DNA from: Bacteroidales bacterium
GTDB lineage: Bacteria > Bacteroidota > Bacteroidia > Bacteroidales > UBA3824
Reading direction: 5' to 3'
Length of the DNA stretch: 64,000 nt
NCBI GenBank assembly: GCA_017535325.1
Contig: JAFXUC010000063.1
Location: forward strand, 1 to 64,000
The notes beneath the pieces were generated by a model, which was not told where the DNA came from, ran no database searches, and was given only the letters and a program-made list of their open reading frames with translations. The translations under genes and the position numbers were made by a program. This document shows positions 21,975 through 56,554 of this stretch, in pieces. How positions within the stretch are numbered: the first letter of the stretch is position 1; every line of letters starts with the position of its first letter.

Positions 21975-22517
21975 TTAACACATTTTCAGAAAATATTCAT
22001 GCACCCTTAAATCGTCGTTCAGTTCGGGGTGAAAAGCCGTAACAAGTTGTCTACCTTGCTGCGCCGCAACGATATTGCCGTTAACAGTAGAAAGGATTTT
22101 TACGCCATCGCCGCATTTTTCGATGAAAGGCGCACGGATAAAAGTCATCGGTATTTTGCCGTTAATACCGTCAAAATCACCTTCAAAGAAGAAACTGCCG
22201 AGTTGACGACCGTAAGCGTTGCGTTTTACAGTGATATTCATCGTACCTAAATGCTTGTCGTCCAACATAATAAGCCCCGCACAAGTTCCGAAAACCGGCA
22301 GACCCTGTTCTATGTCTTTTTTCAGAGGCTCAAATATTGAAAGGTCTTTCAAAAGTTTCAGAATAGTGGTGCTTTCGCCGCCCGGAATTATCATGCCGTC
22401 TTTTTCTCTTTGATAATCAGCAAGATTACGGACTAAAAAACTTTCAACGCCAAGTTTTAAGAGCGTTTGACGGTGTTCCTCAAACGCTCCTTGAAGTGCC
22501 AAAATCGCTATTCTCAT
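21975..22517 (-). CDS. pdxT: Pyridoxal 5'-phosphate synthase glutaminase subunit
   Basis: The protein has 180 aa, a class I-type glutaminase that feeds ammonia to PdxS. The motif PGGEST (45-50), catalytic Cys79 (GTCAGLIML) and the His163/Glu165 pair (FHPEL) are intact. Its ATG overlaps the pdxS stop (TAATG), so translation is coupled and the 1:1 complex is expected. This is the ribose-5-phosphate-dependent route to vitamin B6. Confidence 0.97.
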
Positions 22518-23389
22518 TATTTTCCTCTTTCTGCCATTAAAAGTTGGATTTCCTGCTCGTTGATTCCGACCATTGCGCCGCCCAAATCCTCTGAAAGTTC
22601 AGCCAAAATTTCGGGCTTGTCATAATTGGTAACGGCTTTTACGATAGCCTGAGCGCGTTTTTCGGGATTGCCGGACTTGAAAATTCCGCTGCCGACAAAA
22701 ACGCCTTCCGCTCCGAGTTGCATCATCAAAGCAGCGTCTGCCGGTGTCGCAACTCCGCCCGCAGCAAAATTTACAACGGGAAGTTTGCCGTTTTCGTGAA
22801 CAAAATTTACCAGGTCAAAAGGCACTTGCAACTGTTTTGCAGCCTCGTAAAGTTCGTCTTCCGAAAGCGATTTTATGCGGCGGATTTCGCTCTGCATTTT
22901 GCGCAAGTGTCTGACCGCCTGAATAACATCGCCCGTACCGGGTTCGCCTTTGGTGCGAATCATCGTTGCGCCCTCGTTGATGCGCCTCAACGCCTCGCCC
23001 AAATCTCTCGCACCGCAAACAAACGGCACTTTGAATTTTCTCTTGTCAATATGGAAAATATCGTCGGCGGGAGTTAAAACCTCCGATTCGTCAATATAGT
23101 CAATTTCTATTGCTTCAAGTATCTGAGCCTCAACAAAATGTCCGATTCTGCATTTTGCCATAACGGGGATTGAAACCGCCTGCTGAATGCTTTTTATCAT
23201 TTTCGGGTCGCTCATTCTGGCAACGCCGCCAGCCGCTCTGATGTCAGCCGGAATTTTTTCCAAAGCCATAACCGCGCACGCGCCGGCTGCCTCTGCGATT
23301 TTTGCCTGTTCGGGCGTTGTAACGTCCATGATAACTCCGCCCTTCAACATCTGGGCAAGATTTCTGTTTAAAGTCTCTCTGTTTTCCAT
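22517..23389 (-). CDS. pdxS: Pyridoxal 5'-phosphate synthase lyase subunit
   Basis: The protein has 290 aa and the TIM-barrel synthase that builds PLP from ribose-5-phosphate, glyceraldehyde-3-phosphate and ammonia. Lys79 (VMAKCRIGH) and Lys147 ([11 protein letters not shown]) are the conserved Schiff-base lysines. Other family blocks ([18 protein letters not shown]) are present. It lies 3 nt downstream of the ThiD-like/AraC fusion and overlaps pdxT by 1 nt, so all three probably share a transcript. Confidence 0.97.
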
Positions 23390-23392
23390 TTT

Positions 23393-24517
23393 CTATATGT
23401 TTTTATTATTACGAAATTCTGTGGGAGAAATGCCTTTTTGAGTTTTAAAAAACTTGCAAAACGCGGCTTGCGTTGAAAAACCGAACTTGTATGCCGCCTC
23501 CTGAACGGTCATGGAAGTTGAATGTAAAACTTCTTCGATTTCTTTCATCAAATAACTGTCTATCAACTGTTTCGGAGATTTTCCGACAGTTTTTTGTGTT
23601 ATTTGCGAAAGGTAACGCGGCGTGATACTCAGTTTTTCGGCATAAAAACTTACGTCTCTTGCCTTGTCGTAAAACTTAGCCACAAGCGACATCAAAGCGT
23701 TGTAAATCTCTACGTGTCTGAAACTTACGGGCTGGTTGTGAATATGTCTGATAACGTTTGCGCCGTCAAAAGCGAGAGAATAGACGATTAAGTTTCTGAT
23801 GTATTCGTGTGCTTTTTTTGCGGCGTTTTCCAAGGTTTCGCCCTTTGCCAAAAAGGTTGCGAAAGCCGAGGAAAGCGTTCCTGCCACGCCGTGATAATTC
23901 CAGCCGCGAATATCGGGCGAGGTAAAAAACAGAGGTTCGCCGCCGCCGCTTGTTATAAACACGTCTGTCACAATGCCTTCCGCGCAATGTCCGCCTTGTA
24001 GCAAAACCGACTGCGCACCGCTTTCGAGAATTTTTTTTGCCGCCGAGAGCATGTCCTCAACCGACACTATCCGGCATTTCAAAAGCATTTCCGCCTCCTG
24101 AGATTTCAAAATCAGGACTTTTGCATTATGAAAAATATAGTTTTCAAAAGCGGCTATGACATTTTGTGAAACGAGTTTTTCGCCTCTTGAACTCAAAAAT
24201 CCCGCATCGACGACGATATTTTGACAGCCGACGGTTTCTTTTGCGAGGGCTTTGACGGTTTCAGAGTCTCTTACCAAACCGATTTTTACGGCTTTCGGAC
24301 GGTTTTCCATAAACGCAGTCCTGACCTGAGCCGTAACCAAATCCGCAGGAATATTTTCGACGGAAATGATTTTTTCGGAGGTTTGGACGGTGATGGCGGT
24401 GATTGCCGTAACCGCGTATCCTCCAAGCGAATAAATGGTTTTAATGTCCGCCTGAATACCCGATCCGCCGGTAGAATCCGAACCCGTAACGCTTAATATG
24501 GTATAAAAATTTTTCAC
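23393..24517 (-). CDS. ThiD-like pseudokinase fused to an AraC-family DNA-binding domain
   Basis: The protein has 374 aa and starts with GTG, with no other start in frame before Met70. Residues 1-250 have the fold of hydroxymethylpyrimidine kinase (TGSDSTGGSGIQADIKT at 11-27). Catalytic positions are changed: the GTGC loop of ThiD is GVAG (210-213), so Cys213 is Gly; the KGGH motif is QGGH (174-177); and the DPV and TPN motifs are lost. Residues about 264-374 form an AraC-type double helix-turn-helix (VSFYAEKLSITPRYLSQ, VQEAAYKFGFSTQAAFCKFFK). It lies 3 nt before pdxS. I infer a ligand-sensing transcription factor for vitamin B6 or a pyrimidine rather than a working kinase. Confidence 0.85.
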   Translation of the reverse strand: MKNFYTILSVTGSDSTGGSGIQADIKTIYSLGGYAVTAITAITVQTSEKIISVENIPADLVTAQVRTAFMENRPKAVKIGLVRDSETVKALAKETVGCQNIVVDAGFLSSRGEKLVSQNVIAAFENYIFHNAKVLILKSQEAEMLLKCRIVSVEDMLSAAKKILESGAQSVLLQGGHCAEGIVTDVFITSGGGEPLFFTSPDIRGWNYHGVAGTLSSAFATFLAKGETLENAAKKAHEYIRNLIVYSLAFDGANVIRHIHNQPVSFRHVEIYNALMSLVAKFYDKARDVSFYAEKLSITPRYLSQITQKTVGKSPKQLIDSYLMKEIEEVLHSTSMTVQEAAYKFGFSTQAAFCKFFKTQKGISPTEFRNNKNI

Positions 24518-24529: not shown

Positions 24530-24606
24530 CTCACACTTTGCCTAAATCTCCAAAAAACACTTCCCAAAACAGAAAACTTAGAATACGTTTTAACAATTTT
24601 AAGCAT

Positions 24607-55554: not shown

Positions 55555-56391
55555 ATGGCTTACAAAAGAATTTTGACGGTTCAGGACGTTTCGTGTGTCG
55601 GACAATGCTCTCTGACGGTTGCCCTGCCGGTGCTTTCGGCTTCGGGAAACGAAACCTGTATTCTCCCGTCGGCAGTGTTAAGCACTCATACCGGCGGTTT
55701 CAACGGTTGGACATTTAGGGATTTGACAGATGATTTTTTGAAAATAAAGGAACATTGGATAAAAGAAAAAATCGATTTTGACGCATTTTATACGGGCTAT
55801 CTTGGTAGCGTACACCAGATAGATTTGGTATCTTCGATTATCAACAGCCCGCTAAAAAAGCCTGATTCTCTGATAGTTGTAGACCCTGCGATGGGTGATT
55901 ACGGAAAACTTTACGCCGGTTTTGACGCTCAATACGTCGAAAGAATGAAAAAACTTGTGTTTTCGGCAGACATTATCATTCCAAATTTTACGGAAGCATG
56001 TATGCTCACCGCAAACGAATACAAAGAGATTCATAACAAAAATTACGTGTCTGAAATTTCGGCGCAACTTGTTGAAAAAGGTGCCAAAACGGTTGTTATC
56101 ACGGGCGTAAGTTACGAAAAAGGCACGTTAGGCGTTTTTGTCAGCGACGGTAAAAAAGAATTTTACCACCCGCACGAAGAACTCTCGCGCAAATGTTCAG
56201 GAACGGGCGATATTTTTGCCTCGGCGTTTGTTGGGGCGATTTTAAGGGGAAAAGACATTTTCAAAGCCGCCGTCATTGCGGAAGATTTCACATTCAAAGC
56301 CATAAAAAATACGATTGATAACCCCGCTCACTGGTACGGCGTAAAATTTGAGCCGCTCTTAGGGGAATATATCAAAAAATTGGAAGAATAA
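55555..56391 (+). CDS. pdxY: Pyridoxal/pyridoxamine kinase (PdxY/PdxK type)
   Basis: The protein has 278 aa. The ribokinase-fold kinase has the PdxK/PdxY N-terminus ILTVQDVSCVGQCSLTVALPVLSASG and STHTGGFNGW, with an intact catalytic GTGD motif in CSGTGDIFASAFVGAI. It phosphorylates pyridoxal, pyridoxamine or pyridoxine for B6 salvage. It is the last gene of the run from 51421 and is distinct from the degenerate kinase domain near pdxST. Confidence 0.93.
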   Translation: MAYKRILTVQDVSCVGQCSLTVALPVLSASGNETCILPSAVLSTHTGGFNGWTFRDLTDDFLKIKEHWIKEKIDFDAFYTGYLGSVHQIDLVSSIINSPLKKPDSLIVVDPAMGDYGKLYAGFDAQYVERMKKLVFSADIIIPNFTEACMLTANEYKEIHNKNYVSEISAQLVEKGAKTVVITGVSYEKGTLGVFVSDGKKEFYHPHEELSRKCSGTGDIFASAFVGAILRGKDIFKAAVIAEDFTFKAIKNTIDNPAHWYGVKFEPLLGEYIKKLEE

Positions 56392-56426
56392 GGATTGAAA
56401 ATTAGGCGGTTATCAACTTAGGTTAC

Positions 56427-56543
56427 CGTGGGTTTACACCCACGGCTATTATATGTCACCCCTTCGGGGTTTGGCTTGAAGCAGACTATATGAAACTGAG
56501 TCCTGAAAGGACGAAACATAATAGACGTGGGTGTAAACCCACG
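56427..56543. repeat. 117-bp intergenic palindromic repeat element
   Basis: Perfect 18-bp inverted ends (CGTGGGTTTACACCCACG at 56427-56444; its reverse complement at 56526-56543) flank hairpins CCCCTTCGGGG and TCCTGAAAGGA and further inner complementarity (TATTATATGT/ACATAATA). The element is non-coding. From memory, similar elements are scattered in Bacteroidales genomes. It lies between the converging pdxY-type gene and glnN. Confidence 0.75.
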
Positions 56544-56554
56544 ATACAATACAA

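Follow-up and report, generated by a model that had tools for sequence, protein, structure and literature searches.

Why should a gene that joins a kinase-like domain to a DNA-binding domain stand directly before the genes for vitamin B6 synthesis? In the 64,000-nucleotide stretch of Bacteroidales DNA analysed here (the window), one open reading frame couples a domain resembling the kinase ThiD to an AraC-type helix-turn-helix (HTH) and leads pdxST, the genes for de novo pyridoxal 5'-phosphate (PLP) synthesis. Its domains, gene linkage and promoter sites suggest that in this gut or rumen bacterium the genes for making vitamin B6 (PLP) are very probably under the control of this fusion, and we put at about 0.74 the probability that the fusion is a one-component AraC-family activator of de novo PLP synthesis with a pseudo-kinase as its B6 sensor.

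Domains and operon of the fusion gene

The fusion and the genes that follow it are arranged thus:

23393..24517, minus strand: fusion gene (ThiD-like pseudo-kinase with AraC HTH), a single open reading frame of 374 aa with a GTG start
23768..24478, minus strand: Phos_pyr_kin domain (ThiD-like, ribokinase fold), residues 14-250, Pfam E 4e-57
23408..23644, minus strand: AraC-type double helix-turn-helix (HTH_18/HTH_AraC), residues 292-370, Pfam E 5e-20, over the cut-off
22517..23389, minus strand: pdxS (PLP synthase subunit), SOR_SNZ E 8e-110, 3 nt past the fusion stop
21975..22517, minus strand: pdxT (glutaminase subunit), SNO E 6e-52, with a 1-nt overlap with pdxS

A first-pass annotation, made from the window sequence, had described a ThiD-like kinase fused to a complete AraC double HTH, with pdxS and pdxT downstream at spacings of 3 and then -1 nt; the open reading frame coordinates and the Pfam domains agree with this description in full. 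The GTG start of the window copy is replaced by ATG at the equivalent position in relatives. In an AlphaFold2 model of the protein (pLDDT 83) the HTH helices are visible, and the best Foldseek matches of the model are ThiD and ThiD-type pyridoxal kinases, including 8g1h, 4jjp, 1ub0 and 4c5l. A chance fusion or an assembly error was ruled out by 39 relatives of the same architecture.

Loss of catalytic residues and retention of the substrate side

A table of residues was compiled from an alignment in which E. coli ThiD served as the reference for 39 fusions and 29 ThiD sequences from Bacteroidota, the roles of the catalytic and ATP-site residues being taken to be those generally known for Salmonella ThiD. 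In the window copy Cys213 is Gly (GTGC to GVAG) and Lys176 is Gln (KGGH to QGGH), as the first-pass annotation had stated. Its further claim that the DPV and TPN motifs are gone holds for Pro138-Asn139, now Leu-Lys, but not for Asp105 (VVDAG) and Glu142 (SQEAE), which persist. The losses extend across the family: Cys213, Lys176 and Asn139 occur in 0/39 fusions, whereas these three and Asp105 are kept in 30/30 of the ThiD compared. Cys213 is replaced by G, A, S or N, such that neither Cys nor Asp fills the base position in any fusion; Lys176 is replaced by Q, R or L or deleted; and Asn139 is replaced by K or R in all 39, a placement that is less sure beside the short-form deletion described below. 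Asp105, retained in the window copy, is gone from several other fusions. Against the NCBIfam HMP-P kinase family TIGR00097, its best NCBIfam match, the window protein scores 188.7 bits, under the 204.95-bit cut-off. Judged by its sequence, the fusion is not a ThiD enzyme, because the defining residues tested are missing. It shares its fold and substrate-side sequence with ThiD (TIGR00097) and the ThiD-type pyridoxal kinases (B. subtilis PdxK/ThiD2, S. aureus PdxK), but differs from them in lacking Cys213, Lys176 and Asn139, in falling under the HMP-P kinase cut-off and in its added AraC HTH.

The substrate-binding side, by contrast with the catalytic residues, is retained as previously proposed, with Gly11, Asp13, Asp23 and Gly210 in place and the GSD...GGSGIQAD segment and HG loop conserved. 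Several fusions do not conserve the residue in the column of ThiD Gln44, and the ligand therefore cannot be read from the pocket. In the Prevotellaceae copies L007, L008 and L009 this column, a pyrimidine contact, is deleted or altered, a hint of a changed pocket. Between close pairs dN/dS of the kinase domain is 0.06-0.16, indicating purifying selection, and the domain is thus not a decaying remnant.

Three fusions (G110, G697 and G793) have dispensed with the ATP-side half entirely but retain the HTH and the substrate half, their Pfam match covering only profile positions 1-125 of 246. Their open reading frames are intact and lie directly 5' of pdxS, with a 4-nt overlap in G110 and G793, and a short-form model is confident (pLDDT 89), with kinases still its best structural match. 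As the short forms occur in two families, a single assembly error does not explain them.

These data bear on whether the protein might be bifunctional, that is, a still-active pyridoxal or HMP kinase with replaced catalytic residues that also regulates transcription. The purifying selection on the kinase domain and the retention of Asp105 and Glu142 in the window copy would fit such a protein, but we consider it highly improbable, given that the base position is neither Cys nor Asp and residue 176 is not Lys in any fusion, that three lack the ATP-side half, and that the genome already encodes intact PdxK and ThiD. The PdxK-type gene, the separate intact kinase noted earlier at 55555-56391, passes the cut-off of the NCBIfam pyridoxamine kinase PRK07105 (265.7 versus 231 bits), and a canonical ThiD lies apart from the fusion on contig C41 of the same genome (E 1.8e-90), so that the fusion is dispensable for thiamine. 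Riboswitch-based thiamine control within the window was also considered and rejected, as Rfam found no TPP riboswitch in the 64 kb. Just 3' of the PdxK-type gene lie two opposed matches to the Rfam Acido-Lenti-1 RNA (56426-56471 and 56499-56544; 55 and 43 bits).

Linkage to pdxST and a predicted operator

All 39 fusions found belong to the Bacteroidales, and none beyond the window's own genome occurred in a 396-genome sample of the phylum. They form a single clade (100/100 support), so the fusion most simply arose once, and the tree places its kinase domain as ThiD-derived. pdxST lies within about 2.1 kb of 33 of the 39, in three gene orders (fusion co-directional and upstream, divergent, or downstream); the linkage on which the earlier regulatory proposal depended is thus present across relatives. 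Among 295 Bacteroidales genomes the fusion occurs in six and pdxS in 13, all six fusion genomes being pdxS-positive (Fisher 2e-9, uncorrected for kinship), and the seven fusionless pdxST loci of this sample have no fusion-like neighbour. Such absences are soft, since most relatives are metagenome-assembled genomes (MAGs).

The six fusions found away from pdxST comprise one (G695) whose locus ends at a contig break, four from genus g355 (G701, G801, G776 and G790), in which the operator motif described below lies on pdxJ, and one (G731) for which no target was found. In place of pdxS, which they lack, the g355 fusion genomes carry two pdxJ genes, while the pdxST-bearing fusion genomes checked are without a full pdxJ. 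In G731 (98% complete) neither pdxS nor pdxJ was found; an operator-like site nonetheless lies 5' of its fusion (L134/L155). As its sisters G700 and G757 carry pdxS-pdxT-fusion, this genome may have lost a pdxST that stood between promoter and regulator.

The first motif found in the pdxS and fusion promoters was the Bacteroidetes -7 box, TAnnTTTG, which was taken as the anchor for a second round of motif discovery. This yielded an operator-like motif, TTTtnCcAaAtgGGAAC, nearly always 46-47 bp upstream of the -7 box, with a log-likelihood ratio of 168 versus at most 56 in 20 shuffles, the promoters of related genomes in the set not being independent. Many promoters carry a second copy 21-22 bp away, forming a direct repeat. 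In many this second half-site lies farther upstream, at -67/-68, while on g355 pdxJ and among close relatives of the window it falls between the first and the -7 box. A joint scan for operator and box over 211 loci (1.09 Mb, a total that contains some overlap as well as the training promoters) gave 64 matches at the 46-47 bp spacing and 0 with a reversed matrix; other spacings gave 0-3 nearly everywhere and 11 at the distal half-site. The distinct sites precede pdxS, pdxJ or the fusion, bar one that is the lowest-ranked. Divergent loci have one site on each promoter, which suggests autoregulation.

In the window the predicted promoter elements are:

24560..24576, minus strand: predicted operator, proximal half-site TTTTCTGTTTTGGGAAG, 11.7 bits, 47 bp from the -7 box
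24538..24554, minus strand: weak candidate for a second half-site, TTTGGAGATTTAGGCAA, at a distance of 22 bp from the proximal one and better in relative L006
24522..24529, minus strand: Bacteroidetes-type -7 box TATCTTTG, 17.3 bits, 4 nt before the start codon

The proximal half-site and its box form the sole joint site on either strand of the window, and the exact operator sequence is unique in its own genome, the next best match having 3 mismatches; as a match to the motif it is weaker (11.7 bits), with a poor second half-site. At up to 3 mismatches the operator occurs 20 times in this genome versus 20 in a backward control, and there is therefore no evidence for a regulon beyond its own operon; an operator pattern search in 22 fusion genomes likewise stayed at background level or barely exceeded it. 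Between the end of the -7 box and the GTG lie 4 nt, as they do before the ATG of relatives L044, L117 and L119; because so little separates box from start codon, the fusion mRNA probably has no leader or almost none.

By its C-terminal double HTH and by its predicted half-sites, tandem direct repeats spaced by 21-22 bp that lie upstream of -33, the fusion is an AraC/XylS-family regulator; it departs from the family in that a pseudo-kinase replaces the usual sensor domain. The half-site layout holds across the fusion family, as predicted sites of which the second is weak in the window. Activators of the AraC type typically bind upstream of the -33 region. A pdxST repressor with PLP as co-repressor could account for those promoters in which the second half-site lies inside the interval between first site and box, where it could block RNA polymerase. 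We regard repression as unlikely, however, given the near-universal half-site upstream of -33, the many second sites at -67/-68, a usual place for activators, and the fact that the functional analogue PdxR is an activator (PMC5320631).

Proposed targets, ligand and mechanism

The g355 genomes were kept out of motif building and their pdxJ loci scored by matrix, a permissive mismatch search being too noisy. In the four fusion genomes of this genus the first pdxJ copies scored 20.5, 18.5, 20.3 and 9.4 bits, against a background 99.9th percentile of 17.3 bits, and the direct repeat is visible by eye in g355 pdxJ promoters. The second copies scored -2.1 to 2.3 bits. Where no fusion was detected, pdxJ from genomes of other genera scored -2.1 to 4.5 bits and pdxS promoters no more than 7.9 bits; a further control pdxJ, from G732 and cut near a contig end, scored -1.9 bits. 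The unlinked fusion gene of g355 carries the motif too. The putative site would then follow whichever PLP pathway a genome uses, and the one-component regulator of de novo PLP synthesis proposed in the first-pass annotation gains support from both this motif and the linkage to pdxST. Alternatively, the motif could belong to another regulator, with the fusion a passenger of the pdxST operon, given that DNA binding by the fusion is predicted from sequence. This is very unlikely, as genomes without a detected fusion have essentially no such motif at pdxS or at most of their pdxJ promoters, and as it is present on pdxJ in g355, where the fusion is unlinked and pdxST missing, and occurs on both promoters of divergent loci.

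The same distribution, with the motif on g355 pdxJ and mostly absent from genomes without a detected fusion, points to a likely role in B6, one in thiamine being unlikely. A regulator of PLP synthesis that responds to hydroxymethylpyrimidine or its phosphate, both thiamine precursors, and so links the two pathways would be in keeping with the ThiD origin of the domain in the tree, its best NCBIfam match to HMP-P kinase and its conserved substrate side. We nevertheless think it quite unlikely, since the motif tracks the PLP genes pdxS and pdxJ, no TPP riboswitch was found in the window, the Gln44 column is lost in several fusions, and solved structures of ThiD folds (4c5l, 4ywr) contain pyridoxal or a similar ligand. 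As the target tracks PLP synthesis and not pdxST as such, a B6 ligand is favoured over hydroxymethylpyrimidine.

From the promoter sites and the domain content, we infer binding of the operator motif by the fusion protein, a B6 vitamer as its ligand, and activation that ceases once this ligand is bound. Under this B6-responsive activator model, a ThiD-family kinase domain would have been captured once, lost its phosphotransfer chemistry and been kept for its pocket. The protein would bind, probably as a dimer, the direct repeat immediately upstream of the -33 region; under B6 scarcity it would activate pdxST, and itself where it heads the operon, and entry of a B6 vitamer (PLP or pyridoxal) into the former kinase pocket would end activation. 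A more specific form of the model, which we hold tentatively and at somewhat less than even odds, is a ThiD-derived PLP receptor in which a rebuilt ATP-phosphate region holds the 5'-phosphate of PLP and which governs the PdxST or PdxJ pathway. The exchange of Asn139 for Lys or Arg throughout the family, together with that of Lys176 for Arg, Gln or Leu, or its loss, would represent the rebuilding, and the three short-form species would have pared the receptor down to its substrate half. The conserved Lys/Arg139 could, hypothetically, hold the PLP phosphate.

The MocR-type PdxR, an activator, binds in the promoter region of pdxST, and PLP turns it off (PMC5320631). Like the fusion, MocR-subfamily PdxR is a one-component protein that adjoins pdxST and has a retired B6-related enzyme domain as its sensor; as a functional analogue it matches the fusion's place with the PLP synthesis genes and the motif on pdxS and pdxJ promoters, from which regulation by the fusion is deduced. 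PdxR, however, joins a GntR HTH to a fold-type I aminotransferase-like domain, neither of which Pfam found in the fusion, whereas the fusion joins an AraC HTH to a ThiD/ribokinase fold. It is therefore an analogue of PdxR, an independent solution in the Bacteroidales, and not a PdxR member. In ROK repressors of the NagC/Mlc type and in archaeal ThiR, an enzyme or kinase fold has likewise become the ligand sensor of a transcription factor; the principle is the same as in the fusion, while domains, ligands and target genes are unrelated. In the open-access literature searched, no description of a ThiD-AraC fusion was found.

The Bacteroidales are central to the vitamin supply of gut and rumen. 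If the activator model is true, they have a regulator dedicated to PLP synthesis whose sensor has no relation to that of the known PdxR. Full-length dead kinases and half-domain forms would represent stages between enzyme and receptor, making the path from catalyst to sensor testable, and the operator would offer a ready assay and a means to predict B6 regulation across the Bacteroidales. Automatic annotation is likely to label the fusions as HMP/HMP-P kinases or AraC regulators, and metabolic reconstructions could therefore miscount ThiD.

Two further observations concern pdxJ in g355. In G758, a member of the genus in which no fusion was detected (90% complete), pdxJ carries a 13.0-bit operator-like site with a two-copy repeat (L163); either the fusion was missed in the MAG or the site has outlived it as a relic. 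In the fusion-bearing g355 genomes, which have two pdxJ genes (L150-L154, L156, L161 and L162), the operator-like site is on one copy only, and the operator-less copy sits among genes resembling ExbB/ExbD-type transport genes.
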